From: a virus
Virus record (IMG/VR): IMGVR_UViG_3300017751_000130
Span: 1-30,302 of that record
DNA: 30,302 bases
Strand: one strand, 5' to 3'
Position 1 is the first letter of the stretch. Every line of letters starts with the position of its first letter. Under the pieces are notes generated by a model. That model did no database searches, was not told the origin of the DNA, and worked only from the letters and a program-made list of their open reading frames with translations. Shown piece by piece: positions 4,131 through 21,089 of the stretch. Position numbers and translations under genes: made by a program.

Positions 4131-4479
4131 CGTACAGAAACAAGATTGGGGACACGAATTAACAATTGCTAGAACCAATGATTATTGCACAAAAATATTA
4201 GCATTTACTGGTGCTGGTAGTAGAACAAATTTCTTCTTTAATGTTAAAAAAGAAAAAACTTGGTTTGTAAATACAGGCAATTTTAAGTTAAGATGGATAG
4301 ATACAGACACAGGAAAACTATTTGAAACTGTGTTAGGTGAAGGTCAAACACATCATGTAATGCCGTTAATGCCGTGTTGTTTAGAAGCAGTAGTAGCTGA
4401 TAGTTCTATAACAGAATCCAGTAATGGTGATTTTGAAAAAGATACTTTTATAGTATTACCTTCAAATAACATAGGATAG
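4123..4479 (+). CDS. small cupin-fold protein lacking the usual metal-binding histidines
   Basis: A 118-residue single-domain protein with a cupin-like layout: WGHELTIARTNDYCTKIL at the N-terminus, KKEKTWFVNTGNFKLRW as the first conserved motif (residues 42-58), LGEGQTHHVMPLMPCCLEAV as the second (71-90), then an ITES segment near 96-99. The pattern resembles mannose-6-phosphate isomerase type cupins, whose first motif has H-x-H before K-x-E. Here those positions look like Asn (NFFFN, residues 36-40), and the second-motif His before LEA looks like Cys. The protein is therefore probably not a classic metal isomerase and may be a sugar-binding or structural relative. It overlaps the Nudix gene by 8 bases (ATGAGTGA). 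Confidence 0.65.
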   Translation: MSDVQKQDWGHELTIARTNDYCTKILAFTGAGSRTNFFFNVKKEKTWFVNTGNFKLRWIDTDTGKLFETVLGEGQTHHVMPLMPCCLEAVVADSSITESSNGDFEKDTFIVLPSNNIG

Positions 4480-4746: not shown

Positions 4747-6318
4747 TGATATACGTTTAATAGTTATAGCACCTACCATTGCAGGATGCAATGTACACTG
4801 ATATCTGTAACCACCTGAGATAGTCTCTGGCACTTCCCAATACAATGTTCCGCCATCTTTACCCTGTGCGTTTGTACCAGTTGAAACATTACCAATAATA
4901 TCTACATGTATTAGGCCAGTATTATATGCTGTGCCTGTACCGTCTTGTATTTCAAATGGATGGCCGCCTATTTGATCTAAATCAAATGCAATAGTCATTC
5001 CGCCAATTGCATACAACGTAGGATTATTTCCACTATATCCGTGACTATCAACAGTATAAGCAGAGTTACCTGCATTATTCATTCTAATCATTGCAAAAGC
5101 TGATGTATAACTTTTGTCAATTGTTCTACCAGTACGTACAACTTCTTCTAAATCGTCATACTTGTCAACACCTAATGCTCCTGAAAAATCAACACGTACA
5201 TTATTACCTGCTACTGTAGTATTAATATTTGTACCACCTTGTACTGTAAAAGTTGATGTTGTAGTGGCCGCTGTTAATGATCCAGCATCACCAAATATTG
5301 TTGTAAACACATTCTGATCTGGATCGCCGCCTCCACCACTTACTGTGTCTGGTCCCCACGAGTCACCGTCCCATACAAGTGCTTGACCTGTAGCTGGTGC
5401 TGTAGTATCTACGTCTGCTAATGCTGATAAATTAGAACTTGTACTAAGTGCATCTGTTATTCCGTATCCTGATATAGTAGTTGGAGTTGTGCCTAAGTCT
5501 GCAAAGTCCACAACAGCATCAGTAATGCCGTAACCTGATATTGTAGTAGGTACATTTGATAAGTTTAAAAATGATCCGTCAAATGCGTCAGTAATACCGT
5601 AACCTGCTATAGTAGTTGGTTTAGTAGTTAAGTCTGCAAATACTCCGCTGAATAATAAAGATGTAGTGTCAGTTAAGTCGCTTACATCTGCTGGTATAGT
5701 TGGTGTATTTTGTAAGTTATTATAATTTAAAAAATATGTACTATCTTGACCGTCTAATGTGTCAGCATCAGTGCCGCCGCCACCTGTTGTTGCATCAAGT
5801 CCTGGTGACCATTTTGCACCATCCCATTTTAACACATTACCTGCAACAGGTGTTGTATTTGTAGTATCTACGTCTGTTAAATCGGTTATGCTTAGTGTAG
5901 GCGTTGAACCATTAATTGTAAGTGTGTTACCTACTATGTTTGTTGTTACGTCAGTACCGCCTGCAATAGTTATTGTACTAGTCGGTGCAGAGGCCGATAA
6001 TGATCCTGCATCTGCATCAATTTGAGAAAAGATATTTTGATCAGGATCACCAACAGAGCCGTTAAAGTCTATTGTTACTTCATCGCCACTTATTGTTGTT
6101 TCGATATTGGTGCCGCCACTAATAGCAAATGAGTCATTTTCGTCGTCTGCTGTAGTAGTACCCGAGTCTGCTGTAAATGTTTTAAATGCATCTGGTTGTT
6201 CTGCAGAAATACCACCACCTGAAACTACGTTCCAAGAAGTGCCGTCCCAAACCCACGTAGTTGTGCCGTCAGTAAATGTTTCGTCTACATTTGGTGTTGC
6301 TGGAAAATTTAATGCCAT
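4738..6318 (-). CDS. tail-fibre-like protein with C-terminal cupredoxin-like domain
   Basis: A 526-residue, Thr/Gly/Asp-rich fibre-type protein. The N-terminus (MALNFPATPNVDETFTDG, then TWVWDGTSW) is a common start module of marine phage fibres. Residues 92-136 and 333-380 are two copies of one module (DPDQN-x-F, DAGSL, TST-x-T, GGT, GN). Three copies of PTTI(S/A)GYGITDA sit at 234-290, a repeat typical of phage tail fibres. The last 140 residues differ: they contain GGHPFEIQ (H453) and YQCTLHPAMVG (C508, H511, M514), the ligand set C-x2-H-x2-M of a type 1 copper (cupredoxin) site. No signal peptide. It overlaps the protease gene by one base (TAATG) and has its own late promoter at 6335-6342. 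The virion role is inferred from repeats and context. Confidence 0.78.
   Translation of the reverse strand: MALNFPATPNVDETFTDGTTTWVWDGTSWNVVSGGGISAEQPDAFKTFTADSGTTTADDENDSFAISGGTNIETTISGDEVTIDFNGSVGDPDQNIFSQIDADAGSLSASAPTSTITIAGGTDVTTNIVGNTLTINGSTPTLSITDLTDVDTTNTTPVAGNVLKWDGAKWSPGLDATTGGGGTDADTLDGQDSTYFLNYNNLQNTPTIPADVSDLTDTTSLLFSGVFADLTTKPTTIAGYGITDAFDGSFLNLSNVPTTISGYGITDAVVDFADLGTTPTTISGYGITDALSTSSNLSALADVDTTAPATGQALVWDGDSWGPDTVSGGGGDPDQNVFTTIFGDAGSLTAATTTSTFTVQGGTNINTTVAGNNVRVDFSGALGVDKYDDLEEVVRTGRTIDKSYTSAFAMIRMNNAGNSAYTVDSHGYSGNNPTLYAIGGMTIAFDLDQIGGHPFEIQDGTGTAYNTGLIHVDIIGNVSTGTNAQGKDGGTLYWEVPETISGGYRYQCTLHPAMVGAITIKRISLL
5449..5619 (-). repeat. three in-frame repeats encoding PTTI(S/A)GYGITDA
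   Basis: Three copies of a roughly 13-residue unit ending in GYGITDA occur at residues 234-245, 257-268 and 279-290 of the fibre protein. At the DNA level the copies differ mostly at third codon positions, so the repeat is maintained at protein level and is not a recent duplication. Such units occur in the shafts of trimeric phage fibres. Confidence 0.8.
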
Positions 6319-7886
6319 TAAGAGCCTCCACTAATATTTATCGTTCCTGTAATAGCCCATGTGTTTAATGATCCATGTCTACTGTATAACATTCTGTTTG
6401 GTCCACCTAATAAACTATTAATGTAATCATCATAATCAGTATCAGAACCTGTAGTACTTATTACATTTTTAGTGTCACTAAAAACTTTGTCCTGTAACTG
6501 TCCTGGTGTTAAGTCAGGCTGTACTTGTAAATGTAAAGCACATACTCCTGCTACTTGTGGCGATGCCATTGATGTGCCGCCAATACTCATAATTTTATAT
6601 GTACTGTTACCAGGATAGTCTAGCAACGAATACACAGCGTCTGCAAGTACACTAGACGTACTCATTATATTATCACCTGGTGCATATATGTTTATTCCAG
6701 GACCTCTTGTAGAACTTCCTGCTATTCTATCAACACCTGAATTTACTTCAGCGTCTATATTACCTACCATAAATGCTTCATTACTAAATGGAGAACTACC
6801 TCGATGATATTGGTATGTTCCACCACTAAACACTACTTCATTATCAAAGTCAAGGCCTGTTGGTAAGTCTGCTTTATATCTATTATTTCCTGCGGCAATG
6901 CATACATGTATACCAGCGTCAATCATATCTTCTATTTCTGCATCTACTGACGGTACTCTTACTGGTACTCTATTATTACCAAAAAACAATCTACTAACTC
7001 CAGTTGCGGCCCATAGTCCGCCTCTATCAGTGTAGTCAACTCCGTATGTCCATGCTGTACCTCTATAAGTACCACTTATTGGATCACTAGTTTGGTTTGA
7101 TCCGTAGCCCCAACTCATGTTAACTACTGTAGGACGGCTATTAGTCTTAGCATTGTGCCATAATCGTATAGCATCAAACGCATCACTAATTGAAGTACCA
7201 GTACCGTCACTTCCTGACAATGTTTCTAGGCCTCCTAACTTTTGAGAATAAATGTGTGCGCCCTTTGCCCAACCGTATGTTTTGCCTGCAGCTATACCTG
7301 CGCAATGTGTTCCGTGACCATCAGCATCTCTATAATAGTTTGTGCTTTGTGTTCCAGGAAGACCACTTTCTGTATACCAGTCAATTTGTTGTAATCTACT
7401 GACACCATCTTTATCTTCCCACTCAGGATGATTAGGATCAATGCCGCTGTCTTGTATTACTACGTCTACACCTGTTCCGTCTAACGCATAGTTGTAGTCG
7501 CCTGCAACAGTATTATTACTACCATATACATTAGTTGTTTCTATACAGCGTCTTAGCCCCCAATTCACATAACTTGGTGTTGTTAGTGCAGCTCCTGAAA
7601 TTGTTCTATAAAATACGCCAGTTTGTGATGCATTTTTTATTAGTTCAATATCGTCTCGTTGTTCTGGTGGTATTTCTACTGATAATACTCTTTCGTCATT
7701 TTGTAATGTTGACGCTTCTTCGTCAGTAAGCATCCAATGTGTCATACGCTTTGAACCAGCTCTTGGATTTGCTATATCTACACTTCTATTTGGTATTGGG
7801 CCTGCACCAGAACTTGCAGCTAATTCTGCATCAAATGCTTCTATATCAATTCCTCTATGTACTACTACAATGTATTCTTTTTCCAT
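6318..7886 (-). CDS. subtilisin-like serine protease (peptidase S8)
   Basis: A 522-residue subtilase with every key motif present: catalytic Asp in VVIQDSGID (D146), catalytic His in DGHGTHCAGIAAG (H191), oxyanion-hole Asn in AAGNN (N334) and catalytic Ser in GGTSMASPQVAG (S439). Residues 1-75 (YIVVVHRG..., ERVLSVEIPP) look like an I9-type propeptide or inhibitor domain, so self-processing is possible. There is no signal peptide. It lies between a fibre-like gene and a propeller gene, 3 bases after the latter, so a virion-borne protease acting in structural maturation or on host surface protein is plausible. AAGGCG precedes the ATG as a weak ribosome binding site. It is unlike the T4 prohead protease gp21 and should not be taken for it. 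Confidence 0.9.
   Translation of the reverse strand: MEKEYIVVVHRGIDIEAFDAELAASSGAGPIPNRSVDIANPRAGSKRMTHWMLTDEEASTLQNDERVLSVEIPPEQRDDIELIKNASQTGVFYRTISGAALTTPSYVNWGLRRCIETTNVYGSNNTVAGDYNYALDGTGVDVVIQDSGIDPNHPEWEDKDGVSRLQQIDWYTESGLPGTQSTNYYRDADGHGTHCAGIAAGKTYGWAKGAHIYSQKLGGLETLSGSDGTGTSISDAFDAIRLWHNAKTNSRPTVVNMSWGYGSNQTSDPISGTYRGTAWTYGVDYTDRGGLWAATGVSRLFFGNNRVPVRVPSVDAEIEDMIDAGIHVCIAAGNNRYKADLPTGLDFDNEVVFSGGTYQYHRGSSPFSNEAFMVGNIDAEVNSGVDRIAGSSTRGPGINIYAPGDNIMSTSSVLADAVYSLLDYPGNSTYKIMSIGGTSMASPQVAGVCALHLQVQPDLTPGQLQDKVFSDTKNVISTTGSDTDYDDYINSLLGGPNRMLYSRHGSLNTWAITGTINISGGS
6335..6342 (-). promoter_or_regulatory. late promoter inside the 3' end of the protease gene
   Basis: The reverse strand reads GATAAATA, then five bases, then GGAGG. 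By T4 geometry transcription starts at the G at 6329, the first base of the ribosome binding site of the downstream fibre gene, which begins at 6318. The fibre gene can thus be made without the protease. Confidence 0.72.
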
Positions 7887-7889
7887 GTA

Positions 7890-9167
7890 TTACGCCTTAA
7901 AAATATAAACAGCACCACTACCTTGATTTTCAGCAGGAACACCTGTTACTAGATAATCATTAGTTGCTCTTATAGTATAGCCAAATCTATCACTAGTGCT
8001 AGTAGTATATTTATTTGGATTAGTTATAGTATTTTGGTAACTCCAGTCCGTTGTACTAAAAATATGTATAACGCCACTTGCTGTACCATTATCGTCATCT
8101 TCTTCCAACGCTCCTACAGCAAGATAATTATCTGTTAGTGCAATAGATTCACCAAATCTATCATTATTTGCGGTACCGTATGTATTAGGATTTTGTATTG
8201 TAGATACTAAACTTCCGTTTGTTGGATTATATACATATACTCTACCACTGTTTGTAGCTTCACTGTCCTCACCGGGACAACCTACTACAGCATAATTTTC
8301 ATTTAAGTCTACAGCATAAGCAAATCTATCATCTCCGTCAAGTGCATCATCTTTTGGATTATAAATTGATTGATCAGCAGCACCTGTAGAGTTATTAAAT
8401 AGGAAGAATGCACCACTATCGCCTTGTCCTAATGCACCTGGTTCATTTTCTCTCCAGTTGCCTATCATTGTCCATGTATCAGTAATAGCAAGTGTATTAA
8501 TCCTTTCACCAATTTGGTCACCTGGATATTCATCTTCACCATCTAAGTTTGGATTTTCAATAGAGTGATCTAAGTTTCCGTTTGATAAATCAAAGATGTA
8601 TGTCCAACCTGTATCGTCGCCTAGCCCTACAGCGTTTTCTCTATATGCACAAACACTTGCATAGTCTTCAGTAAGTGCAACAGTACTACCAAATGCATCT
8701 CCATTTGCATTAATTTCTGTTGTATTAGGATTTGGATCATTAAACGTATATACTAAACTTCCGTCAGTTATATCAAATACGTATGCTTTACCGTTATTAT
8801 CAGTAGCATCATTTTCGCCCGGTGCTCCTACAATAACGTATCCTGTATTAACAGCAACACTTGTGCCAAACAAATCTCCGTCACCTGCATTTATAGGTGC
8901 TACTGGATTTGGATTTACTATTGTTCTTAGATATGTACCTGTAGAAGTGTAAATGTAAACAATACCTTGTGATGGTACTCCTAATGTGCCTTGTTCACCA
9001 GGTGCTCCTACAGCAATATGATTAGGTCCTATTGCAACAGTAGTGCCAAATGCATCTGATTGTGCAATGCCTTCTTCATTTGGATTTTCTAAATATTTTA
9101 ATAATTTAAAAGGTTTAAGTATAGGCTGAAAATATTGTAGGGAACTTGCTGAACTATATCTTGGCAT
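7890..9167 (-). CDS. seven-bladed FG-GAP beta-propeller protein
   Basis: A 425-residue protein built almost entirely of seven repeats of about 58 residues. Each has an FG-type start (for example DAFGTTVA, DLFGTSVA, DRFGESIA), a second element VGAPGE or a variant, a strand such as GIVYIY, and a closing NPN. FG positions are near residues 40, 100, 159, 219, 281, 338 and 395. The last blade lacks its closing strand, and the N-terminus has a matching spare strand (LLKYLENPN, residues 22-30), the usual ring closure of a seven-bladed propeller. Such propellers bind ligands or partner proteins, often with Ca2+ in Asp-rich loops. In this context it is probably a virion adhesin component. The start at 9167 has no strong ribosome binding site, and the gene lies 5 bases after the preceding one. 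Confidence 0.82.
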   Translation of the reverse strand: MPRYSSASSLQYFQPILKPFKLLKYLENPNEEGIAQSDAFGTTVAIGPNHIAVGAPGEQGTLGVPSQGIVYIYTSTGTYLRTIVNPNPVAPINAGDGDLFGTSVAVNTGYVIVGAPGENDATDNNGKAYVFDITDGSLVYTFNDPNPNTTEINANGDAFGSTVALTEDYASVCAYRENAVGLGDDTGWTYIFDLSNGNLDHSIENPNLDGEDEYPGDQIGERINTLAITDTWTMIGNWRENEPGALGQGDSGAFFLFNNSTGAADQSIYNPKDDALDGDDRFAYAVDLNENYAVVGCPGEDSEATNSGRVYVYNPTNGSLVSTIQNPNTYGTANNDRFGESIALTDNYLAVGALEEDDDNGTASGVIHIFSTTDWSYQNTITNPNKYTTSTSDRFGYTIRATNDYLVTGVPAENQGSGAVYIFKA

Positions 9168-10696: not shown

Positions 10697-10921
10697 TTAA
10701 TATAAGATTCGGTTGTAATATGTCCAATGTCTTTTGAAATAGTTAAAAGCTTCGCCGTCACTCATAGTTACATATGTCTTACAGTGACTAAGTTGTATTC
10801 TAAAATTTGCCATACGTCTGTGTTGTACTGACCAGCGCAGCCAATTAGCGTGTGCATCATTTCCTATCTTGTTGTCTCGATCCATCATAGTACAAATTTC
10901 AACTTTATGAAAACTACTCAT
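10697..10921 (-). CDS. 74-residue protein, last gene of the modification-like cassette
   Basis: Not recognised. The protein is rich in His, Trp, Tyr and Arg (HANWLRWSVQHRRMANFR, then KRHWTYYNRILY at the end), with no membrane segment or signal peptide. The start at 10921 overlaps the preceding gene by 8 bases, which fits translational coupling. It is the last open frame before the late promoter at 10683-10690. No terminator hairpin is visible after it. Its position makes it a possible small partner of the cassette enzymes, but nothing in the sequence shows this. Confidence 0.65.
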   Translation of the reverse strand: MSSFHKVEICTMMDRDNKIGNDAHANWLRWSVQHRRMANFRIQLSHCKTYVTMSDGEAFNYFKRHWTYYNRILY

Positions 10922-11678
10922 GCCACTTTACTTCCTTTAACGGTTTATAATCTACAATAAAACGATTATCTAATATAGTTGATCGTAAACGTAGATTTTT
11001 TATATCTTTGTCAGTTACGCTTCTTACATCGCCTTTAATACTATCTTTTTTAACAAGCATATATTGTGCTAGAGGAGTACCTGCAGGAATTTTTGTTATA
11101 CCATCTAATTCATGCCAGTATAACTGTACATTTAAAAAATTTGGTCCTTCGTCGCCATCTATAAATCCAGTTGCTGCTGTAAAGCTATGATTGTCTGGGT
11201 AAGGACAAGGCATGCATAATAAGTAATATCCTTTTGGAACATATACAATCCAAGGTGTTTGCACTTTAAGAACAGTATCTAGTGTATTTCTTTTATCTGT
11301 TTGACCAAATATAGATTCTGCATGATGCGACAAATAGTCCCATTTCCAAATATGATCTGCATCCATATTTTTTTGAGAAACCGGAGACCCCCATTGAAAT
11401 GTCTTTCCGTCACCGTCAGTTTTAACTGTAAAGTCACACCAGCTACGTAATATCCAACCTTCACGCATAATTTTGTGCATGCCAGGACATCTAGCAAAAT
11501 GTGTTAACTTAACAGGAGTGTCTTTCATTTCTTCTTGTGTTTTCTTCCAGTCGTCTATTGCTGTCTTTACCCATTTAAACTTTATTTTACTTGCTGGAAC
11601 AACAGGCATTACTTCTTTTATTTCTGGAAATAAACAGACAAATTCTACTTTAGGTTTTTTCTTAAACCAACTAAACAT
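10914..11678 (-). CDS. conserved protein of unknown function, paralogue of 12087-12824
   Basis: A 254-residue soluble protein without recognised catalytic motifs. It is clearly related to the product of 12087-12824: both begin with a short basic stretch, then PxxPA(S/N)K near residues 25-32, a CPG motif followed by a GWIL/GFIL segment and a Trp, then TPW-x-V-x-x-PK, (C/A)YPD, a GF(I/V)D-type segment and AGTP-(L/I)-A near the C-terminus. I associate this pattern loosely with phage proteins listed as DUF6065, but that name is a recollection, not a result. Its late GTPLAQ segment suggests a small beta-barrel that binds a ligand. ATG at 11678 has AGGT upstream and overlaps the previous gene by 8 bases. 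Confidence 0.72.
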   Translation of the reverse strand: MFSWFKKKPKVEFVCLFPEIKEVMPVVPASKIKFKWVKTAIDDWKKTQEEMKDTPVKLTHFARCPGMHKIMREGWILRSWCDFTVKTDGDGKTFQWGSPVSQKNMDADHIWKWDYLSHHAESIFGQTDKRNTLDTVLKVQTPWIVYVPKGYYLLCMPCPYPDNHSFTAATGFIDGDEGPNFLNVQLYWHELDGITKIPAGTPLAQYMLVKKDSIKGDVRSVTDKDIKNLRLRSTILDNRFIVDYKPLKEVKWHE

Positions 11679-12084
11679 TTATTGACCTTTTATAAATTTT
11701 GTCTATTTGATTCATCATTGTGTTAGTGACTACCCAACATTCAACATCGTCTATATGTACAACTTTAGTATCTCCTTGCGGTGATGTATAAAACACAATA
11801 TGATGTACTTCTTCTCGATCTTCGCCTAATACATTTTCTATTGTAATAGGTGGCTGAGGTAACGGGCTAACACCATTGCCATTCTTTGATGCAATAACTT
11901 GTATAGACTCGCCATCTTCTTTATATGTTAGCACTATATCTTTTTGTGATAATACAGCATTAAACCAACCTACATGTTTTATTCTATCTTTTTGTACTTT
12001 ACGTTCTGTATATTGGTCTTTAGCTTCTCTTAGTTTTTGAGTGTAAGTTACAAATTCATTTGTATTAGTTTCTGTTAACGGCAT
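11671..12084 (-). CDS. 137-residue protein of unknown function between two paralogues
   Basis: Not recognised. The first 35 residues are helical and charged (NEFVTYTQKLREAKDQYTE); the rest looks like a small beta-rich fold (DIVLTYKEDGESIQVIA, HHIVFYTSPQG, VECWVV), with a Pro-rich loop PLPQPPITIENVLGEDREE. The ATG at 12084 has a strong GGAG 9 bases upstream and starts 2 bases after the preceding stop. Its stop overlaps the next gene by 8 bases. Sandwiched between two paralogous genes, it may form a complex with one or both products, which is inference from position only. Confidence 0.7.
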   Translation of the reverse strand: MPLTETNTNEFVTYTQKLREAKDQYTERKVQKDRIKHVGWFNAVLSQKDIVLTYKEDGESIQVIASKNGNGVSPLPQPPITIENVLGEDREEVHHIVFYTSPQGDTKVVHIDDVECWVVTNTMMNQIDKIYKRSINV

Positions 12085-12086
12085 TA

Positions 12087-12824
12087 TTATCTCCTAAAAT
12101 GCTTTTTATACATGTCTTTCATTAAAGACTTTTTATGTTTAAAAGAATGTGTTCCCCAGAACAAACGTTTTTTAAAAAACTTCCAATCTTCTTGAGTCAT
12201 TTCTCTTATTACATGATCATACTTTTGCTCTGTCAACGGTATAATATGTGCTATTGGAGTTCCTGCCGATAACTTCCGTTCACCATTTGGAACATTCCAA
12301 AATCCTTGTATATTTAATTCTGTATTAATTGCAGGATCAAGTACGCCTATAGAAGATTCGAATTCAAAAGTATCCGGATATGCAATTGGTGTAATTAACA
12401 ATTTAACATTCTTAGGAGTAACTACATGCCACGGAGTATTAAATTTTACTATAGCTTCGATGCTATGAGGTCTTTTTGGTAACCATCTAGATATATCCGG
12501 TGGTTGACTAGTAACAGGATCACCTTCAAGTAATTTAGATAATGTTTCACTTGGATTAACATATTGAAATCCTGGCTGTCCGCCTTGTGTCTTAATTATT
12601 ACATCGTGCCATAAAGGTAATATAAATCCATAATTGTATAGATCAAATATGCCCGGGCATTGATATAAATGACTTGGCAAGTTTCTATCTTTATTATCAA
12701 TGTAATTTTGTTTACAACGAGACATCCATTTTGGCCTAAATTTATTAGCAGGAATAATAGGGTAAGCGTCTGCTACCCCGTCAATCTTACTAAAAAATTC
12801 TATTTTTTCTTGCTTTTTAAACAT
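12087..12824 (-). CDS. conserved protein of unknown function, paralogue of 10914-11678
   Basis: A 245-residue relative of the 10914-11678 product. Shared landmarks are YPIIPANKFRPKW near residue 21, CPGIFDLYNYGFILPLWHDV, FNTPWHVVTPKNVKLLITPI, AYPD, IGVLDPAINTELNIQGFW and LSAGTPIAHIIPL. The C-terminus is strongly basic (GTHSFKHKKSLMKDMYKKHF), which the paralogue lacks. The start is set at the ATG at 12824 and not at the TTG one codon upstream: the ATG shares one base with the oxygenase stop (TGATG) and has AGGT 8 bases before it. Function is unknown. Two divergent copies in one operon suggest a heteromeric pair or two substrates. Confidence 0.72.
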   Translation of the reverse strand: MFKKQEKIEFFSKIDGVADAYPIIPANKFRPKWMSRCKQNYIDNKDRNLPSHLYQCPGIFDLYNYGFILPLWHDVIIKTQGGQPGFQYVNPSETLSKLLEGDPVTSQPPDISRWLPKRPHSIEAIVKFNTPWHVVTPKNVKLLITPIAYPDTFEFESSIGVLDPAINTELNIQGFWNVPNGERKLSAGTPIAHIIPLTEQKYDHVIREMTQEDWKFFKKRLFWGTHSFKHKKSLMKDMYKKHFRR

Positions 12825-13399
12825 CAAGATACCTGTATTGTAAATGCTATATTCATTCTATCTCTGTTTGATTTATTTACTTCGACTTCATGAGGAACCC
12901 ATGCAGGCCATAATATTAATTCTCCATCATGTGGATGGACTAATACTTCACGTACAAACGGACTTACTGAATTGCAATCATTTAGTACATTTGCAGGATT
13001 TATAAATTTTAAAGGACCTGTCTTAGAACCTTGTACATAATAAACAGCTGCAAAAGTATCTGCTACATGACTATGCAACACGTTTCTACTTGCAGGTTTA
13101 TTAATGTTTGACCAGTAGTCAATACTAATATGATTCTTAGTTATATGGTTCTTAAACGTTGAATCTAAAGATGAATAGTAGTCTATTGCATTCTCTGTTA
13201 ATACCTTAACTCCATCTAAAAGCCAATCTATGTTGTCATACTTAACTGTACTTCGCCAACATCCGTCGTTGCTATTAGCAATTGCACCAGCATTAGACTC
13301 TTGTGATACTAACATTTGTTTGCTAAGATCAGCTATTTGATTTTCATTGCCTACTCTGCCTACAAAGAAGTCAGAGCGAAAAAGGTTTACTCTTTCCAT
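12824..13399 (-). CDS. putative 2-oxoglutarate/Fe(II)-dependent oxygenase
   Basis: A 191-residue protein with the layout of the small phage-type 2OG-Fe(II) oxygenases (PF13759/TIGR02466-like). Residues 105-122 have RNVLHSHVADTFAAVYYV, with H109, H111 and D114 as candidate iron ligands. Residues 157-172 read HDGELILWPAWVPHEV, where H170 would be the distal His, and R179 or R181 in NRDRMNIAFT would bind 2-oxoglutarate. Members hydroxylate proteins or small molecules; the substrate here is unknown. It overlaps the halogenase gene by 13 bases and shares one base with the next gene, so the three are probably made in fixed proportion. The exact ligand assignment needs a structure model, because the family usually has H-x-H-x-N in the first motif. 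Confidence 0.75.
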   Translation of the reverse strand: MERVNLFRSDFFVGRVGNENQIADLSKQMLVSQESNAGAIANSNDGCWRSTVKYDNIDWLLDGVKVLTENAIDYYSSLDSTFKNHITKNHISIDYWSNINKPASRNVLHSHVADTFAAVYYVQGSKTGPLKFINPANVLNDCNSVSPFVREVLVHPHDGELILWPAWVPHEVEVNKSNRDRMNIAFTIQVS

Positions 13400-14895
13400 T
13401 CACTGTACCATTTATCTAAAAATTTATAATGATTGCCAAATAATTCTTTTGAACTTTCAACACGTAGATCTTGTACTTTCATAAAGTGTTCTACATATTG
13501 TTTTTGCTTATCAGTAAGAGTAGATTTTGCATCTGGATATGCTCCGCCAGCATGCAACATTGACCACCATTGTATACTACTAAACATACTACCAGGACTA
13601 AAAAATACAAAGTCTGGTATGTTAGGATAATATTGGCTCATCATCATTTGTGCATCATCAGGTAAGTCATTTAAACTTTGTGATCTTATCTCTTGCCAAT
13701 ACGGAGTATCATTTCTATTACTAAAGTAATAATGTGCAAATATAAATGTTAAGATTTCTATATTCATTTCATAGAAGCCTCGATTAAGCATTGATTGTGG
13801 TTGCTCAGTCCATTCATTACGTGTGCGATTCATTAAGTCTGCAAAAGATGTAACTAATGCTGTAGTAAATGTGATGCCTGTTGCTTCTAACGGTTCAACA
13901 AACCCGGCACTTAGTCCAACAGCAATAACATTTTTTACAGAAATATTTTGATGTGATCCTATACGCATTTTTAAATGATTAGCAGGAGCATCATATTCTC
14001 CAATAGCTTCACGCAATTCTGCTTCTGCTTGCTCTGGAGTTATATGTTTACTACTATATACATATCCATTGCCAACACGATGGTATGTAGGAATAGTCCA
14101 GCGCCACCCTGCTTTCATTGTAGTTGCTTTTGTATACGGAAAACATTCTTCTTCAGGATTAGTATATTGTGTTGGCATTGCAACAGCACTATCATTTATT
14201 AACCATTTGTCATAACTTATAAAAGGCTCTTTTAATGTTTTTCCTAATAGCAAGGATTGAAATCCACTACAATCAATATACAAATCACCAGTGTACTCGT
14301 TATTGTTTTCGTCAATTAGTTTTGTAATACCATTTACATCACTACCTATCTGTGTAATTTTAGTATTAACATAATTAATTTTATGTAGTATTAAGTCTTT
14401 AACAGTAGCAATAATATCATAAGCACTAAAATGTACAGCACCATAACTATCAAGACCTACGTTAAAATTAATATCAGTTGCATCGTCAATTTTAGTTGCT
14501 GTATTGTTTTTTGCTAGTCTATATGCTGGATGCCATTTTGCGAATTCGCTGTAAGGCTTGTCTACAAAGTATTTGCTTACTGGTAAATGCGGTGCAGGTA
14601 AAACATTATCAACAACATCATTATCTACAAAATACGGCTCATCGTTCCAGCCTGTTAATTCTACTCCATACTTAAATGAAGCATTACTAGGTTTCATCCA
14701 GTCTTTTGCTTCTATTCCACATTTATATAAAAAAGAGGCTGTAAGAGGCTGTGTTCCTTCTCCAACTCCAATTGGTCCTTTTGATGCATCTTCAATTAGT
14801 TGTATTTCAACAGGATCAATTAAGTTATTAGTTAGGTATGCTGCTGTTAGCCAGCCACTAGTTCCACCGCCAAATATTACTATCTTTTTTACCAT
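13387..14895 (-). CDS. flavin-dependent tryptophan-halogenase-type enzyme
   Basis: A 502-residue protein of the PrnA/RebH family, which uses FADH2, O2 and halide to make hypohalous acid and halogenate indole-type substrates. Seen: the FAD-binding GGGTSG at residues 9-14, IGVGEGTQP (42-50), the family Lys in NASFKYGVELTGW (K75, in the position of PrnA K79), the halogenase signature WRWTIP at 264-269, and GFVEPLEATGI (331-341), where E337 fits the catalytic Glu. The next residue is Ala, whereas PrnA has Ser (EPLEST). Length is near the family norm (about 530). A partner flavin reductase is not in the window. Halogenases of this type are known in some marine T4-like phages, without known substrate. 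It overlaps the upstream gene by 7 bases; GAGGAA precedes the ATG. Confidence 0.9.
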   Translation of the reverse strand: MVKKIVIFGGGTSGWLTAAYLTNNLIDPVEIQLIEDASKGPIGVGEGTQPLTASFLYKCGIEAKDWMKPSNASFKYGVELTGWNDEPYFVDNDVVDNVLPAPHLPVSKYFVDKPYSEFAKWHPAYRLAKNNTATKIDDATDINFNVGLDSYGAVHFSAYDIIATVKDLILHKINYVNTKITQIGSDVNGITKLIDENNNEYTGDLYIDCSGFQSLLLGKTLKEPFISYDKWLINDSAVAMPTQYTNPEEECFPYTKATTMKAGWRWTIPTYHRVGNGYVYSSKHITPEQAEAELREAIGEYDAPANHLKMRIGSHQNISVKNVIAVGLSAGFVEPLEATGITFTTALVTSFADLMNRTRNEWTEQPQSMLNRGFYEMNIEILTFIFAHYYFSNRNDTPYWQEIRSQSLNDLPDDAQMMMSQYYPNIPDFVFFSPGSMFSSIQWWSMLHAGGAYPDAKSTLTDKQKQYVEHFMKVQDLRVESSKELFGNHYKFLDKWYSEWKE

Positions 14896-16604
14896 TCTGT
14901 TATTTCCTCAATTGATATTAATTCTTCTTTAGGTTTAGAAAGTACAACTATGTACAATCCATTCCACCAACTTTCTAAATCTTCTACATCACATAACAAC
15001 ATTTTTTCATATGCAACTTCAAATCCTGCTTTGTTTATTCCGTTACGTGCGCCTTCGACAACTCCTTGCCAATTTGCATCATCAAATATTAATACAGCTT
15101 CTTGTGCAAATACATCTTTATAATGTAGTACAGCTTGTTCTGTACTTGTTGCATCATGAGGCCCGTCATAAAAGAACATGTCTATTTTACGGTTGTACTG
15201 TGATACATCAGCTTCAAATAAATCATTATCAATTACATCAACAGTATTATCCTGCTTATAAGATTCTAAATTATTTAAAAAGTTTTGTTTTTCATTATGC
15301 GGTAACTTAGGTGCATTTGGATCAGCAGGTTGTATGTTTTCCTGCCAGTTGTCAATTGCTACAGCATTTAAATTGTTGTCTTTAATTGCACCACAGAACG
15401 TTGCTCCTTGTGCTACGCCTACTTCCATGTAATGTGTAGAACCACTTGCAATATGATTTAATACTGTTTGAACTCGCGGACTTGTAAGCCCAGGTATACG
15501 AGTGTTTACTGTTGGTACGCCACTTATTAGTATGCTCTCTGCTACATGTTTAACTTTATCAGTATGTTCAATTTTAGATTTAATCTTGTAAATATCATCA
15601 CAAAAATGACATTCCCAACAATCAAACTTACAGTTTTTAATTTTTTTACGCCATGCATCAATAGGCTTATCTTTTAAGTTTGTGCTTTCTAAATATTGTT
15701 CAAAGTTATCATACAGTAACGCTTCGCCATTTGCCCAGCGTTTTACAATATCCATAGTTTCGTATAGTCTACTAACCGCTTCGCGACCGTGCATTTTAAA
15801 TACATCAATACCTAATTCATTAAGGTATTCTTCCCAATCTTCTCTCCACGGAGTTATATTAGCTGTCTTTAAATGTATACTAGGATCGTCAACGTCCCAT
15901 TTAGGACAACTTACTCTACTAATAGGATTATTAAAATATTGTGCTTCTTGTCCTGCTCTAGTATTATTGTATTCAAAATGTTCGACCATCATTGGACAAC
16001 TACCTTTACAACCTTCATTTGCTAAAAGACTGTAGTGTATGTCCTTGCCGTAGTTTTCTTTAATCCACACCTTTGCTTCTTTAAGACGTAATAGCGTATC
16101 TCTATCACGCATAAGATCTCTATCAAGGTTTATATAATCAAACCCATACTTTGCTAAACTTACAATTTCTGATGCTATTCTTACGTCTCGTAGTATAGTA
16201 TTTTTTATATATAATTCCGGAAATGCTTTTTGTATTTGTCCTGTAGCCATCCAATGTGTATGCGGTATAGTAGCAACACGTACTCCTGCATCATATACAG
16301 GTTTAAAGTTTTTTATAAAAATATCTAGATTTTTTTGACTAGGCGGAACCTGAATATTATTAAATGTAGCACTTACTGGAACACCTGTTTGTTTTTGTAC
16401 AAACAGTGCTTGTTCTATAGCAAGTTGATAATCATCATCTTGTACAAAAATATCGCCCATAGCATCTTGTGCAAATGGAGCAATCCTGCATGTAAAATAC
16501 ACATCTTTAATGTGATCTTTGTATTCTCCAATAAAATTAACAAACTCAACATACTGTTCATTTGATAACTTAGGATTTAGAGGTATACTAAAAATTTTTC
16601 TCAT
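14889..16604 (-). CDS. fusion of U32-peptidase-like Fe-S domain and class I methyltransferase
   Basis: A 571-residue two-domain protein. Residues 1-300 resemble the U32/UbiU-type TIM barrel: FNNIQVPPSQ (81-90), a barrel segment DAGVRVATIPHTHWM, KYGFDYINLDRDL and NEGCKGSCPMMVEH (C199, C203), then SCPKW (C233). A Cys cluster CKFDCWECHFC follows at 325-335 (C325, C329, C332, C335), so an iron-sulphur cluster is likely. Residues 355-560 are a SAM-dependent methyltransferase: YMEVGVAQG (393-400) as motif I, D418 at the end of strand 2, FFYDGPHDA (477-485) and VLIFDDANW, resembling the Methyltransf_24 group. U32-like clustered proteins hydroxylate or modify RNA and quinones without O2, and are not necessarily proteases. 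It is the first gene of the cassette, behind a sigma-70 promoter; GGAAAG lies 10 bases before the ATG. Confidence 0.78.
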   Translation of the reverse strand: MRKIFSIPLNPKLSNEQYVEFVNFIGEYKDHIKDVYFTCRIAPFAQDAMGDIFVQDDDYQLAIEQALFVQKQTGVPVSATFNNIQVPPSQKNLDIFIKNFKPVYDAGVRVATIPHTHWMATGQIQKAFPELYIKNTILRDVRIASEIVSLAKYGFDYINLDRDLMRDRDTLLRLKEAKVWIKENYGKDIHYSLLANEGCKGSCPMMVEHFEYNNTRAGQEAQYFNNPISRVSCPKWDVDDPSIHLKTANITPWREDWEEYLNELGIDVFKMHGREAVSRLYETMDIVKRWANGEALLYDNFEQYLESTNLKDKPIDAWRKKIKNCKFDCWECHFCDDIYKIKSKIEHTDKVKHVAESILISGVPTVNTRIPGLTSPRVQTVLNHIASGSTHYMEVGVAQGATFCGAIKDNNLNAVAIDNWQENIQPADPNAPKLPHNEKQNFLNNLESYKQDNTVDVIDNDLFEADVSQYNRKIDMFFYDGPHDATSTEQAVLHYKDVFAQEAVLIFDDANWQGVVEGARNGINKAGFEVAYEKMLLCDVEDLESWWNGLYIVVLSKPKEELISIEEITEW

Positions 16605-16618
16605 CTATTTCTTTCCGT

Positions 16619-16659
16619 AAAAAAAGGCACTATACTTTATACTTATTATAGCACCTTTT
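16619..16659 (-). terminator. rho-independent terminator after the 16678-17211 gene
   Basis: On the reverse strand, arms of 13 bases (16647-16659 and 16622-16634) can pair across a 12-base loop, with two G-U pairs in the middle, and the descending arm runs into seven T (16619-16625). On the plus strand the same two positions would be C-A mismatches, so the signal is directional: it ends minus-strand transcription arriving from the late genes upstream. Confidence 0.75.
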
Positions 16660-16673
16660 AATTAAAAAGTAAA
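16645..16673 (-). promoter_or_regulatory. sigma-70-type promoter with extended -10 for the seven-gene cassette
   Basis: On the reverse strand TTTACT (16668-16673) and TATAAT (16645-16650) are separated by exactly 17 bases, and TGC immediately precedes TATAAT, forming an extended -10. TATAAT is the full consensus and the -35 matches at four of six positions. Predicted start is near 16638, inside the loop of the overlapping terminator. This is the only strong host-type promoter I see in the window. Confidence 0.75.
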
Positions 16674-16677
16674 GTGA

Positions 16678-17211
16678 TTAATCGTATAATGTTTGAGAAA
16701 ACTTCTTAGTTTCAAACTGAGGTTCTTTATCTAGTTGATGTGTGTACGCACACTCCCATTCAAAGTACGTAGCCATATACATTTGTGTTTCTTTTAATGT
16801 TCTTAGCCCTGGAACTTGCGCTCTAATTTGAATACGACCCGATTCATCATCAAAGTTATTTTCTGCCCAATTTAACATTTGAGCTTTTAACAATGCTACA
16901 GTGTTTGATTCATCAATTGAATTAAGTCTGTATGCAACTTTTTCATAATCGTTATCACCAAAACTTGTTGGCTGTATAATGTCTGCAGGGTCAGTTACTG
17001 ATCTCATAATACCAACTTCACCATCAAGTGAGTTAGTAAAGTTTCTTGCATCAAACATTTCCTTTGTAATTGTTGTAGGGTTTAACCAATCAATTTGAGG
17101 AGTGCCTGTAACTTTAGCAAAAGTAAAATGCCAGTCATTGCCTATCATTTCTATTTCTGGTACAAGTCTAGGATCATTGCCTGCTACTGTTTCAAACATT
17201 ATATATGTCAT
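16678..17211 (-). CDS. 177-residue conserved-looking protein of unknown function
   Basis: Not recognised. It is acidic and soluble, with an N-terminal half containing DWHFTFAKVTGTPQIDWLNP and a C-terminal half that is helical (TVALLKAQMLNWAENNF, QMYMATYFEWECAYTHQL). There is no membrane segment. The ATG at 17211 has GAGGAG about 10 bases upstream; a second Met at residue 5 is less likely. It overlaps the coiled-coil gene by 20 bases and has a late promoter at 17265-17272 within that gene. Late expression next to fibre genes suggests a virion or assembly role, perhaps as a fibre assembly or attachment factor. Confidence 0.7.
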   Translation of the reverse strand: MTYIMFETVAGNDPRLVPEIEMIGNDWHFTFAKVTGTPQIDWLNPTTITKEMFDARNFTNSLDGEVGIMRSVTDPADIIQPTSFGDNDYEKVAYRLNSIDESNTVALLKAQMLNWAENNFDDESGRIQIRAQVPGLRTLKETQMYMATYFEWECAYTHQLDKEPQFETKKFSQTLYD

Positions 17212-18058
17212 TTATTGTCTCCTCAGAGCCTCCGGTTGTTGATGTTGGATTTTCTATCTTACTGTATTTATCAGTAGGTGCTAAAAGATCTTTATTATCT
17301 ACGCCACCGTGTAGCTTTAAATTTTCTTCGGCTGCTGATTGTAACTGTAAATTATAGCTCTGTAATTGTGTACTATAATTCATTGTTAATGCCAGTATTT
17401 CAGCCTGCTGTTCTGAACCAACACTTAAAATAGCATCCATATTACCTGTACCAATGCGACCATAAAAGATCATATCAGTTGCAGCTTGTTTTGCAAGTCT
17501 GTTGGTCCAATATTGTGCTTCATAAATATCTTCTTCGTCTGTATTTAGAATGTCCATATATGTGCGGCCGCTACCATCTGGTAATTGTGCTTCATCGCTT
17601 TCAATAAACTCTTGCAATAGATCAAGCAAGTGTTGTCTTTCTAAATACCAATCTTGTAGTCTACGTTTACTCATAATGTGATTACGTTCAGCATTCCATG
17701 ATTCTACTGACGCTAGTTCCCTGTCTAATTCGTCGTGTGCTTCTTCTGCCATGCGTTTAAAACGTCTAACTTCTACGTCATATTTTGCAATTTCATATTC
17801 AATATTTTCAATTGATTCTTCTTTAGATTTGATTTCAAGCAAATACTGTCTTAATTTACTATAAGGTGTAATTTGAGCTTGACCTACAAACCATCTCAAC
17901 TTGAACTTTGGATTAGTCCATTCCTTATTGATTGCGTAGCTGATTGCGTCTTTTTCAACATCTCCTAACATAGATACATCAGTATTAATTTTACTATGAT
18001 ATCTGTGGTCAGACATATATTGTTTTCTACGGTCAATATTTTGCACGTCTGTTGTCAT
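17192..18058 (-). CDS. 288-residue coiled-coil protein of unknown function
   Basis: Not assigned to a known family. Residues about 70-145 are a long charged heptad-like stretch (EIKSKEESIENIEYEIAKYD, then RRFKRMAEEAHDELDRELAS) that should form a coiled coil. Residues 1-65 include a conserved-looking RWFVGQAQITPYSKLRQYLL. A second helical part runs QYWTNRLAKQAATDMIFYGRIG, followed by a low-complexity Gln-rich stretch and a Ser/Thr-rich tail. The features fit a structural connector or assembly chaperone. A late-promoter variant lies at 18089-18096, and AAGGAG precedes the ATG by about 8 bases. It is separated from the upstream fibre gene by 41 bases. Confidence 0.72.
   Translation of the reverse strand: MTTDVQNIDRRKQYMSDHRYHSKINTDVSMLGDVEKDAISYAINKEWTNPKFKLRWFVGQAQITPYSKLRQYLLEIKSKEESIENIEYEIAKYDVEVRRFKRMAEEAHDELDRELASVESWNAERNHIMSKRRLQDWYLERQHLLDLLQEFIESDEAQLPDGSGRTYMDILNTDEEDIYEAQYWTNRLAKQAATDMIFYGRIGTGNMDAILSVGSEQQAEILALTMNYSTQLQSYNLQLQSAAEENLKLHGGVDNKDLLAPTDKYSKIENPTSTTGGSEETINDIYNV
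17265..17272 (-). promoter_or_regulatory. late promoter inside the coiled-coil gene
   Basis: The reverse strand reads GATAAATA 54 bases before the start of the 177-residue gene. The predicted first base is A at 17259. It would give that gene its own late transcript ending at the terminator at 16619-16659. Confidence 0.6.
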
Positions 18059-19131: not shown

Positions 19132-21089
19132 TAGTTATCTCTCCATGCTCCTAATCCTGAACTTGATCCTGCTTTTCCTTTTGGCTCCATAGATGTTCCG
19201 CCTTGGAAGCCTGACTCTGTGTAATAGTTCCAACGGAAACTTAAATTATTTTGAGCACCATTAAAACAGCCTAGCTGATAAGCATGGTCTTGACCCATTG
19301 TAAAGTTTTCTTCACCACCGTTTACTGGTTTAGCGTAAGTGTTTGCTGTTGACCTAGTAGTCCAGTTAGTTCTACGGAAGTTTGCTCCACTTGCATACCC
19401 ACCTTCGTTACCTGCCCAGCAATAGTTAAGTTTACTATTCATTGATTTTTGTTGGTGATGATTACTTGGATAAGTTCCACTCCATGTACCATATGTTTCA
19501 GTAGTAAAATCAAACAATGTACCATCGTTATTTCTAGTAAACATTCCTTCATTTTCCCAACTCATACCCCATGCTTGCGAAGTAGATCCGCCAGGAGCAC
19601 CAATACCTACAGTTGATTGTGTTTCAGTAAGCATGTTATATCTATCAAGTTCTGAACTTCCAGACGTCCATGCCATATAATGTTCTTTCCACACAGTACC
19701 GTCTTGCAATTTGCCACCGCTTAGGTTTCTATCAAATGTACCAGTGTACTGTTGATCAGTACGCATGTTAAATCCTATAACATAATTTGATGTTACAGCG
19801 TGTCCGTTACCTGCACCAAATACCCATGCTACGTTTTTACTACATGCACCTGACTGATAGTTAAATGAACGTTCTAATGAATTATCGCCTAAATTAACTG
19901 TTGTGTCTGTTGATATAGCACATCTATTAACATTGTTCCATGCACTTGAACTTTTATATCCACCTAACATATAATTAGTTGTAATATGTGTTCTTTCTTT
20001 AAATGGTATTGCTAAACTTTGCCATGTAGCATCAGAACTGTAAAATTCAGGTTCGCCAGTGCTACTGTTTATTCTTAATGCACCTTGTGCTGTTTCTTCT
20101 GTTGGGTTAGTTGTATTGTATTTTAAAATAACAATACCTGATCCGCCGTTACCACCGTAGTTGTTGGAGTTATAGTGAGCTCCGCCACCACCTCCGCCAC
20201 CACTGTTTGCGCCAGCATTGCCGCCTGGTACGTTAGCCCAAGTACTTGTGCCGCCGCCCGGTCCATTAGCGCCGTTGTTATATCCTACGCCGCCAAAAGT
20301 AGTTCCAACGGCTCCGCCACCGCCTCCACCTAGGCCGCCATCGCCACCGATGTTTGAGTAGCCTGAGCCACCTCCGCCTCCACCAAAGAAAATAGTTTCT
20401 CCAGTGATTTTAATTTCTGCACCTTTACCGCCATGTGGTCTTGGATATGAAAATCCTGGTTCGCCGGCTCCACCGCCTCCGCCTGGATACCAATAACCTG
20501 AGCCCCATGAACCATCATGTCCTTCGTCTGGATATATTGATCTACCTCTTGCGCCGCCACCGTAGCCACCGTTACCAATAAGTCCGTTATCGTTAATAGT
20601 ACCGTTTGCACCACCACTTGGGGGAACAGCACCACCTGCAGCTCCGCCACCTGATGCTCCATCACCTGCTGGTGAAGTTGATCTATCGTGAGCACTTGCA
20701 CCACCACCGCCACCATGTGCTGTGATAGTTCCAAATGTAGTGTCGCCGCCGTTACTACCTCTTGCTTGTCCTACACCTGCTGATGCGCCTACACCACCAC
20801 CGCCAATTGAAAGTGAAATACTTTGTCCTGGTACTGTTGGATAATTGCCGTCATATATAACGCCGCCAGCTCCGCCGCCGCCGCCCATGTCAGAGCCGCC
20901 GCCTCCGCCGCCCCCAACTACTAATATTTCAATACTGTCAACACCACTTGGCACTGTCCATGATGTTCCGCCTAAACTAGTAAAATAAACTAGTGTACCT
21001 GCAGCTGTAGAAAGCCTTTGTGATTCTGTGCCCACAGGTAACGATAGGTACCCTATATCGTCTATTATTGTGCTTTTAAGTATTGCCAT
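19131..21089 (-). CDS. tail fibre/adhesin with large glycine-rich domain
   Basis: A 652-residue protein in three parts. Residues 1-25 are the fibre start module (AILKSTIIDDIGYLSLPVGT). Residues about 30-325 form a glycine-rich domain with runs of five to seven Gly alternating with Ala, Ser and Asn, opening with WTVPSGVDSIEILVVGGGG and closing with SGIVILKYN, the layout of glycine-rich domains in many marine phage fibres. Such runs can pack as polyglycine II helices, as in the T4-like phage S16 adhesin; that comparison is an inference. Residues about 330-652 are paralogous to the 18100-19131 product, with the shared GGEEN and WRDN landmarks. AGGAAAA lies about 10 bases before the ATG. It is 11 bases downstream of the LamG-type gene. 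Confidence 0.78.
   Translation of the reverse strand: MAILKSTIIDDIGYLSLPVGTESQRLSTAAGTLVYFTSLGGTSWTVPSGVDSIEILVVGGGGGGGSDMGGGGGAGGVIYDGNYPTVPGQSISLSIGGGGVGASAGVGQARGSNGGDTTFGTITAHGGGGGASAHDRSTSPAGDGASGGGAAGGAVPPSGGANGTINDNGLIGNGGYGGGARGRSIYPDEGHDGSWGSGYWYPGGGGGAGEPGFSYPRPHGGKGAEIKITGETIFFGGGGGGSGYSNIGGDGGLGGGGGGAVGTTFGGVGYNNGANGPGGGTSTWANVPGGNAGANSGGGGGGGAHYNSNNYGGNGGSGIVILKYNTTNPTEETAQGALRINSSTGEPEFYSSDATWQSLAIPFKERTHITTNYMLGGYKSSSAWNNVNRCAISTDTTVNLGDNSLERSFNYQSGACSKNVAWVFGAGNGHAVTSNYVIGFNMRTDQQYTGTFDRNLSGGKLQDGTVWKEHYMAWTSGSSELDRYNMLTETQSTVGIGAPGGSTSQAWGMSWENEGMFTRNNDGTLFDFTTETYGTWSGTYPSNHHQQKSMNSKLNYCWAGNEGGYASGANFRRTNWTTRSTANTYAKPVNGGEENFTMGQDHAYQLGCFNGAQNNLSFRWNYYTESGFQGGTSMEPKGKAGSSSGLGAWRDN

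Follow-up and report, generated by a model that had tools for sequence, protein, structure and literature searches.

A halogenase–oxygenase–phrog_7084 core beside the tail-fibre genes of marine T4-like phages: a possible, separately transcribed oxidative tailoring module

Halogenases and clusters of 2-oxoglutarate (2OG) oxygenases have been reported in phages before (PMC3037559, PMC10452541, PMC9964418, PMC2984593, PMC9602691; here and below, statements on published papers refer to the sections of their text that were available). In those sections no native substrate is given for the marine-phage halogenases (PMC10452541, PMC9964418, PMC2984593), and antibiotic protection is offered as a guess (PMC2984593, PMC9964418). 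Phage S-SCSM1 carries 24 2OG-Fe(II) oxygenase genes (PMC9964418, PMC9602691), and such clusters of cyanomyoviruses have been explained by roles in nitrogen or host metabolism (PMC9964418, PMC9602691, PMC3037559). Here we describe a seven-gene set in the 30.3-kb virus record IMGVR_UViG_3300017751_000130 of IMG/VR (the whole stretch analyzed, referred to as the window), which is a T4-like phage. In order of transcription the genes encode a predicted U32/methyltransferase fusion protein (U32MT), a halogenase (HAL), a 2OG oxygenase (OXY) and two members of family phrog_7084 (D7084 copies 1 and 2) separated by the small protein S137, followed by a second small protein, S74.

Among the relatives of HAL is VirX1 (PDB 6qgm), a phage halogenase of solved structure that originates from Syn10. 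Gp42 of Syn9 aligns to VirX1 along its full length, differing only in the first residue, and its gene is directly followed by a phrog_7084 gene. The Syn9 order is tail-fibre-region genes, two halogenase genes, phrog_7084, a small gene and then genes that include 2OG oxygenases; the layout of Syn10 is the same, mostly annotated as hypothetical, and the clusters of S-CREM1, P-TIM40 and S-RIM44 resemble that of Syn9. The window shares with the VirX1 locus a halogenase and phrog_7084 beside a tail-fibre region. It differs in that its HAL is ~30% identical to the VirX1-type enzyme, its order is U32MT-HAL-OXY-D7084, the Syn9 stretch contains no U32MT, and the small genes are dissimilar (Syn9 gp44, a 73-residue protein encoded at the corresponding position, is similar to neither S74 nor S137). 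The 2OG-Fe(II) clusters of cyanomyoviruses such as S-CREM1 hold the same oxygenase families beside tail-fibre-region genes, halogenases and phrog_7084, but their published accounts, in the sections available, mention neither the phrog_7084 link nor a promoter. Searches of the open literature found no study joining phage halogenases or 2OG clusters with phrog_7084 or DUF6065, and no Syn9 expression study was found among the literature matches listed.

A sequence-only reading of this DNA had described seven tightly joined minus-strand genes. All seven open reading frames (ORFs) and all junction lengths were confirmed: in transcription order, the first four genes overlap by 7, 13 and 1 bases, a 2-base gap follows, and the last two junctions are overlaps of 8 bases each. 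The start of D7084 copy 1 was placed at the ATG just after the TTG of the ORF list, giving 245 residues. The enzyme types that had been named also held, with Pfam matches to Methyltransf_24, Trp_halogenase and 2OG-FeII_Oxy_5, and both supposed paralogues belong to phrog_7084. Tail-fibre-type genes lie on both flanks of the set: one flank holds tail-fibre genes that include a 2339-residue fibre, while on the other, tail-fibre-type genes give way to neck/sheath genes, most of them encoded on the opposite strand. The arrangement is not due to chance, because the identical seven-gene order recurs in other IMG/VR contigs, for example in the groups of L053 (which takes in contigs nearly identical to the window), L056, L058 and L064.

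Gene maps were drawn from 287 viral loci, with ORFs called by a simple script; 156 of the loci were non-redundant (sharing no exact 200-mer in a hashed sample). Loci were chosen by anchor genes, the single-protein scans for HAL, D7084 and S137 reaching only close relatives. Only the set anchored on U32MT, which comprises the best 80 of its 285 matches, was not selected for HAL, OXY or D7084. Within its 58 non-redundant viral loci, HAL, OXY and D7084 were all present up to eight genes downstream of U32MT in 40, all absent in 15 and present in part in three. With all anchors combined, 81 U32MT loci had at least five downstream genes (five of 86 clusters had fewer and were dropped). All three genes were found in 43 of them, none in 15, OXY and D7084 without HAL in 14, HAL and OXY in five, D7084 alone in two, HAL alone in one, and HAL with D7084 in one; below, the 50 of these loci with a halogenase are termed HAL+ and the 31 without it HAL-. 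Of 74 D7084 loci, 71 had OXY and 53 had HAL no more than three genes away (the OXY profile was widened over three rounds and may include non-members). Of 88 HAL loci, 79 had OXY, 51 had U32MT and 50 had D7084, while four had none of the three.

On the halogenase tree (99 rows) linkage to D7084 changes 16 times, and D7084-linked halogenases occur in the clade of the window, in that of VirX1 and in further lineages, such as those of L040/L042 and L204. HAL, OXY and phrog_7084 are therefore a recurrent core, present in several halogenase lineages. U32MT is separable from it, being a tail-fibre-block gene first and often occurring without HAL, OXY and D7084. In GenBank phages, U32MT was found in 123 records and g288, a gene of the tail-fibre block, in 120; the 60 U32MT records listed and the 60 listed of 80 halogenase records do not overlap. 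The idea that all seven genes form one pathway consequently fits the core and its conserved order, but not U32MT, which in 15 of 58 loci occurs without the rest. Relatives do not carry the core genes singly and scattered; their order is conserved, and a large part of the relatives share the promoter (see below). As a complete set, the seven families recur in some contigs only: no halogenase was present in 14 of 57 loci holding U32MT, OXY and D7084, and two D7084 copies were present in 11 of 60 loci. VirX1, the structure of which has been solved, and its distant relative in the window are hereby placed in a common module with a defined partner, phrog_7084, together with an oxygenase and the tail-fibre block. 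The substrate question for phage halogenases becomes directly testable in the cultured phages that bear the core, i.e. Syn9, Syn10, S-CREM1, S-RIM44 and P-TIM40.

HAL matched Pfam Trp_halogenase at 1.4e-90. VirX1 was found among its solved relatives at 2.4e-60, and the 30 relatives listed are named tryptophan-type halogenases, LooH or VirX1. The GxGxxG motif, Lys75, Glu334 and Glu337 are each kept in 32 of 32 members, the window's included; the catalytic roles of the Lys and Glu positions are known from PrnA. The WxWxIP motif is exact in 17 of the 32 aligned members, and the window has WRWTIP at 264. With all tested catalytic positions kept, the protein is, judged by its sequence, a flavin-dependent halogenase with predicted activity.

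OXY matched Pfam 2OG-FeII_Oxy_5 at 2.8e-14 (53.7 bits, cut-off 27) and scored 49.5 against TIGR02466, under the cut-off of 62.5. Across the 47 closest sequences, including that of the window, His109, His111, His170 and Arg181 are invariant. Enzymes of the 2OG oxygenase class usually carry His-x-Asp/Glu; these 47 sequences have an invariant His-x-His, with no Asp or Glu at the HxD place.

Both D7084 copies, which are 26% identical to each other, matched phrog_7084 (copy 1 at 1.1e-38, copy 2 at 1.7e-45). The model of copy 2 had a predicted local distance difference test score (pLDDT) of 91, and all 50 entries listed for it by VIA-align were dUTPases (best Z 11.0 over 131 residues, root-mean-square deviation [rmsd] 3.6). 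With Foldseek alone the best E-value was 3.3e-4, to a dCTP deaminase; as the Foldseek E-values are only 3e-4 and above, it is the VIA-align scores and the consistency of the entries listed that support the proposed fold. As an independent hint from sequence, the GilD and GtPlaq stretches align weakly to dUTPase motifs III and IV (E 0.067 to 2.4), and at the motif III position, as placed by these weak alignments, 46 of 49 members have Asp. Two further signatures of dUTPases are motif II (PRSS type) and the C-terminal motif V. By pattern, neither was found in any of the 49 members, nor was Asp-x-x-Tyr-Arg-Gly. Hydrolysis of dUTP by D7084 is therefore unlikely, and the family was not filed as a dUTPase despite its fold; the 254 residues of copy 2 exceed the ~115-190 of the structural targets. 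DUF6065 was matched by two of the 49 members (best 5.8e-6). The two genes, previously noted as paralogues of unknown function, are indeed paralogues, and the uncharacterized phage and bacterial family phrog_7084 gains a predicted fold.

Outside the tail-fibre context phrog_7084 has other neighbours. OXY was near it in two of 14 bacterial loci, i.e. in metagenome-assembled genomes (MAGs) of Azospirillum (one gene between) and Dehalococcoidia (directly following). The other 12 showed no HAL or OXY label among the drawn genes, and Pfam searches with eight neighbours in six of these 12 gave no HAL- or OXY-like theme. The family also occurs in eight Halorubrum virus records. The one opened, Halorubrum tailed phage 7, has its member (L007:5893-6783) without HAL- or OXY-type enzymes, beside thymidylate synthase and not far from DNA polymerase B, where it possibly has a nucleotide-related role.

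In the C-terminal part of U32MT, Pfam Methyltransf_24 was matched at 2.2e-11; no Pfam U32 match was found in 39 U32MT members among the matches listed (25 of 27 families). The model (pLDDT 87.5) was compared by VIA-align. Its residues 1-280 resembled the U32 protein 5d88 (Z 16.0, 228 of 247 residues aligned, rmsd 3.3), and residues ~360-557 resembled catechol-type O-methyltransferases (COMT; up to Z 17.4) and TrmR (5zw3, Z 15.8). Asp480, Asp508 and Asp509, each present in 38 of the 39 members, correspond in our reading to the COMT/TrmR metal ligands. The cluster motif of U32 oxidases (TrhP, RlhA, UbiU/V), CX6CX15CX3C (PMC11574389), was found in none of the 39 members, all of which have CX3CX2CX2C and seven invariant Cys. 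U32MT is thus modelled as a U32-like domain and a COMT/TrmR-type methyltransferase in one chain. In Bacillus subtilis the U32 proteins TrhP1/TrhP2 and the COMT-like TrmR, encoded in one operon, act sequentially to form 5-methoxyuridine at position 34 (mo5U34) in tRNA (PMC6599085). By its predicted folds, U32MT would be a one-chain version of this pair; it differs by its seven other Cys in place of the U32 oxidase motif and by its genomic home in the tail-fibre block. Because that motif is absent, hydroxylation followed by methylation is proposed for U32MT only by analogy of working.

U32MT is tied to the tail-fibre block. In 69 of 81 loci gene g288 lies up to three genes upstream of it; P-HM2 and S-RIM2 have the two side by side, S-RIM14 ~6 kb apart. 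Pairwise protein distances were correlated over the HAL+ loci, of which each gene was represented in 19 to 46. Mutual correlations among g652, g288, U32MT, HAL, D7084 and S137 were 0.70-0.88, compared with 0.25-0.68 between these genes and nudix, g511 and g455, which lie a few kb away on the neck side. OXY correlated less well with the unit (0.43-0.67), possibly due to mixed paralogues. Taken together, the distances indicate that module and tail-fibre block are passed on jointly, in part as an effect of linkage. Published summaries of the virion proteomes of S-SCSM1 (45 proteins) and S-CREM1 (14 proteins) name no such enzyme among the detected proteins, although they do not name all of these (PMC9602691), and the available S-SCSM1 text mentions no halogenase; this fits enzymes rather than virion parts.

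A sigma70-type promoter, TTTACT-17-TATAAT with TG before the second box (10 of 12 with TG in the scan), ends 40 bases before U32MT. It is nested in a hairpin, the 13-bp stem of which pairs positions 16659-16647 with 16634-16622 and is followed by a T-run. Sigma70-type sites in general are not enriched across the region (37 compared with 36.8 in shuffles) and were discarded; only this conserved site was kept. At a score of at least 11 it was found upstream of U32MT in 12 of 50 HAL+ and two of 31 HAL- loci, and hardly ever upstream of other genes (HAL, 0 of 50; D7084, 1 of 44; g288, 1 of 44; g652, 0 of 31). With corrected start codons and a score of at least 10.5, it was present in 23 of 50 HAL+ loci compared with one of 31 HAL- loci, and near-perfect versions occupy the same place in distant relatives. 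Exact copies of the core TATA[ATC]TAAGTA number 17 in 1.4 Mb of loci, and 13 of these immediately precede U32MT; within the window alone, its near-matches are no more frequent than by chance.

The fold z-score of this stretch is -2.85 in the window, and z was at or below that value in seven of nine upstream stretches folded (the exceptions being L066 and L079). Fourteen of the 23 promoter-bearing loci had a z of -2 or below, and 19 had at least six pairs spanning the -10 box. Covariation was assessed on 12 sequences chosen because they show the element: across them 95.5% of the cells of the 13-pair stem are paired, six of the 13 pairs have changed on both sides, and the covariation score was reached by none of 500 shuffles, although related sequences can give such scores without structure. 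The stem ends in the T-run in the window and its near relatives, and covers the likely ribosome site in L066 and L070. T4 genes such as e and soc use the same hairpin logic against read-through RNA. The module is thus likely to follow a schedule separate from that of the tail-fibre genes in these phages, and the promoter type suggests early timing. The T4-type late promoter TATAAATA has a single site in the whole window, at its end, compared with 5.85 expected from shuffles, and this phage group may use a late motif other than TATAAATA. A promoter shared by the unit, whose absence from relatives would have counted against the sequence-only reading, is found at the 10.5 cut-off in 23 of the 50 HAL+ loci and missing from the others.

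We tentatively interpret these genes as a separately transcribed oxidative tailoring module, co-inherited with the tail-fibre genes of marine T4-like phages, and equally tentatively suggest that its target is tied to host recognition and is most likely a tail-fibre protein. Transcription of U32MT-HAL-OXY-D7084-S137-D7084-S74 would start at the promoter within the hairpin. RNA read through from the tail-fibre genes would be stopped at the hairpin and T-run, or have its ribosome site covered, whereas a transcript that begins in the loop would escape, since it does not contain the 5′ arm. U32MT may hydroxylate an aromatic or pyrimidine-like ring, which its second domain would O-methylate, in the manner of TrhP and TrmR. 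Flavin halogenases use FADH2, O2 and halide to generate hypohalous acid, and HAL, which has the catalytic residues, would in this way halogenate an electron-rich ring. OXY, by its family, may hydroxylate a nearby carbon. D7084, probably non-hydrolytic, is proposed to hold the substrate and present it to OXY and HAL because of its near-constant pairing with OXY. As the target, a tail-fibre polypeptide is the best single guess because U32MT is usually accompanied by a tail-fibre-block gene and because this block and the unit are inherited together. The most specific version, in which the host-recognition proteins of the virus are halogenated and hydroxylated by its own enzymes, a dUTPase-fold carrier presenting a tail-fibre residue to OXY and HAL so that the adhesin bears chlorinated or brominated side chains and this chemistry is passed on with the tail fibre, we consider improbable.

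Two points limit our confidence in a tail-fibre target, namely that the module has a promoter of its own and that no clear substrate footprint is seen, and several further observations weigh on the same side. A sigma70-type promoter with an anti-read-through hairpin suits a late virion target less well, and the 27 of 50 HAL+ loci lacking the promoter at the 10.5 cut-off must be transcribed otherwise. No convincing footprint was found in the tail proteins: g288 has two HAL+-specific columns, one of which probably stems from the g177 overlap, and its Trp and Tyr contents are 1.59% and 4.1% in HAL+ compared with 1.06% and 3.7% in HAL- loci, while g652 hardly differs (Trp 2.40% and 2.37%). Physical linkage alone can produce co-inheritance, and the fibre gene g312 (19 loci, few pairs) correlates with nudix and g511 (0.73 and 0.75) about as it does with the unit (0.67-0.78). 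The U32MT tree (81 rows) shows only three changes of HAL, with one clade of 46 rows having it throughout, so that the entries of the co-occurrence tables do not represent independent events; their Fisher p-values were set aside, and much of the co-occurrence is a single acquisition kept over long divergence. In three independent pairs differing in HAL, D7084 differed the same way in 0.9 and the opposite way in 1.2 on average, a slight lean in the wrong direction from tests with too few changes. The U32 part of U32MT is based on the single entry 5d88, which Foldseek placed fifth behind TIM-barrel pyruvate kinases, and little of the list covers that part of the model. To our knowledge, no flavin halogenase acts on a folded virion protein.

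A different product, a halogenated and hydroxylated small metabolite or signal made during infection for antibiotic protection or an effect on host metabolism, is a rather doubtful possibility. The identity of the listed solved HAL relatives, the module's own sigma70-type promoter and the published antibiotic-protection guess (PMC2984593, PMC9964418) point this way. A DUF401-type permease gene may likewise hint at a small-molecule aspect of the module: downstream of U32MT, at a distance of up to 6.5 kb, it was found in 12 of 14 loci with OXY and D7084 but no HAL, in nine of 43 with all three genes and in one of 15 with none. Such a pathway gives no reason for co-inheritance with tail fibres or for placement beside them here and in Syn9/Syn10, S-CREM1, P-TIM40 and S-RIM44, and no biosynthetic core enzyme was recognized in the window by the searches made.

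It is unlikely that the tail-fibre/neck junction is simply an insertion hot spot collecting independently useful cargo with no common substrate. The varied membership (U32MT alone, U32MT-OXY-D7084 without HAL, second halogenases, extra oxygenases, DUF401), the three HAL changes on the U32MT tree and halogenases without D7084 at other genomic places (as in HTVC008M, S-B64, S-PM2 and Syn1) would all suit such assortment; yet HAL-D7084 linkage is seen repeatedly on the halogenase tree, OXY accompanies D7084 almost constantly in the viral loci and is also near it in two of the 14 bacterial loci, and the genes overlap behind one promoter.

Tailoring of uridine or RNA, whereby U32MT would produce a methoxy-pyrimidine, D7084 would recognize uracil by means of its dUTPase fold, and the same base would be modified by OXY and HAL, seems no more credible than assortment. 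It draws on the pairing of U32-like and TrmR-type domains in a single chain, with separate genes for the two making mo5U34 in tRNA (PMC6599085), on the dUTPase fold of D7084 with its motif III-position Asp, and on the separate promoter. The missing dUTPase signatures and U32 oxidase Cys motif, as well as the location with tail fibres, argue otherwise. We know of no RNA halogenation by the flavin halogenase family, which also counts against this explanation.

Early enzymes might instead alter the surface molecule bound by the linked tail fibre and so exclude later phages, which would account for both the co-inheritance and the promoter separate from the tail-fibre genes; this is very unlikely, as family searches recognized no export or glycan enzyme in the unit and the flavin halogenases known to us act inside the cell. 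An anti-phage defence system was rejected, since none of the seven proteins matched a PADLOC model at E 0.01.

Neither S137 nor S74 had a meaningful match in Pfam, PHROGs, NCBIfam or PADLOC, or any match among 50,697 phage records. S137 was present in 29 of 50 HAL+ and none of 31 HAL- U32MT loci. S74 lay within eight genes of U32MT in nine of 11 loci with two D7084 copies and in none of 49 with one. It had been put forward as the only small candidate for a core peptide. In an alignment of nine members it is conserved along its full length and shows no GG/GA cleavage site in any; a leader/core precursor is therefore unlikely, and its role as a precursor of a ribosomally synthesized and post-translationally modified peptide, from a protein confined to a subclade, was dismissed. 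Just before the S74 gene of one relative lies a small J-domain gene (L067:8868-9137; DnaJ, 4.6e-10), and relatives of this locus have ORFs of 84-93 residues at the same place.

The positions of the genes and of the promoter element are given in Table 1.

Table 1. Genes of the seven-gene set, its promoter element and upstream neighbours in the window
Feature	Position	Strand	Description
U32MT	14889..16604	-	571 residues; U32-like N-terminal domain and COMT/TrmR-type O-methyltransferase (predicted); phrog_1458
HAL	13387..14895	-	502 residues; predicted flavin-dependent halogenase, tryptophan-halogenase family; phrog_2928
OXY	12824..13399	-	191 residues; 2OG-FeII_Oxy_5/TIGR02466-like oxygenase; phrog_81
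D7084 copy 1	12087..12824	-	245 residues; phrog_7084, DUF6065-related; dUTPase fold by homology to copy 2
S137	11671..12084	-	137 residues; uncharacterized
D7084 copy 2	10914..11678	-	254 residues; phrog_7084; predicted dUTPase fold; modelled copy
S74	10697..10921	-	74 residues; small conserved subclade protein
Promoter nested in hairpin	16622..16673	-	TTTACT-17 (ending TGC)-TATAAT; before U32MT
g288	17192..18058	-	phrog_1409; tail-fibre-block gene; usual upstream neighbour of U32MT
g177	16678..17211	-	between g288 and U32MT in many HAL+ relatives (gene maps)

Other genes were noted near the module in relatives. The DUF401-type permease gene (Pfam 3.5e-6) lies downstream of D7084 at L098:15378-16415 and in related loci. 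A Dps-like protein, recognized by eye, is encoded at L098:16476-16922, and a possible TonB-dependent receptor (Plug, E 0.044, under the cut-off) at L099:9342-11099.

Elsewhere in the window, the 2339-residue tail-fibre protein (23255-30274) has seven stretches matching the carbohydrate-binding family CBM_5_12. A subtilisin-family protease (Peptidase_S8, 1.3e-32; 6318-7886) is encoded beside an FG-GAP repeat protein (7890-9167) among the tail genes. On the plus strand, cysteine-dioxygenase-like and NUDIX genes (4123-4479 and 3690-4130, respectively) form a pair beside the neck genes that recurs in relatives. The G+C content peaks at 0.51 in positions 20001-21000, compared with 0.32-0.41 in the other 1-kb steps, and this peak falls in the gene for a 652-residue protein with a glycine-rich domain.

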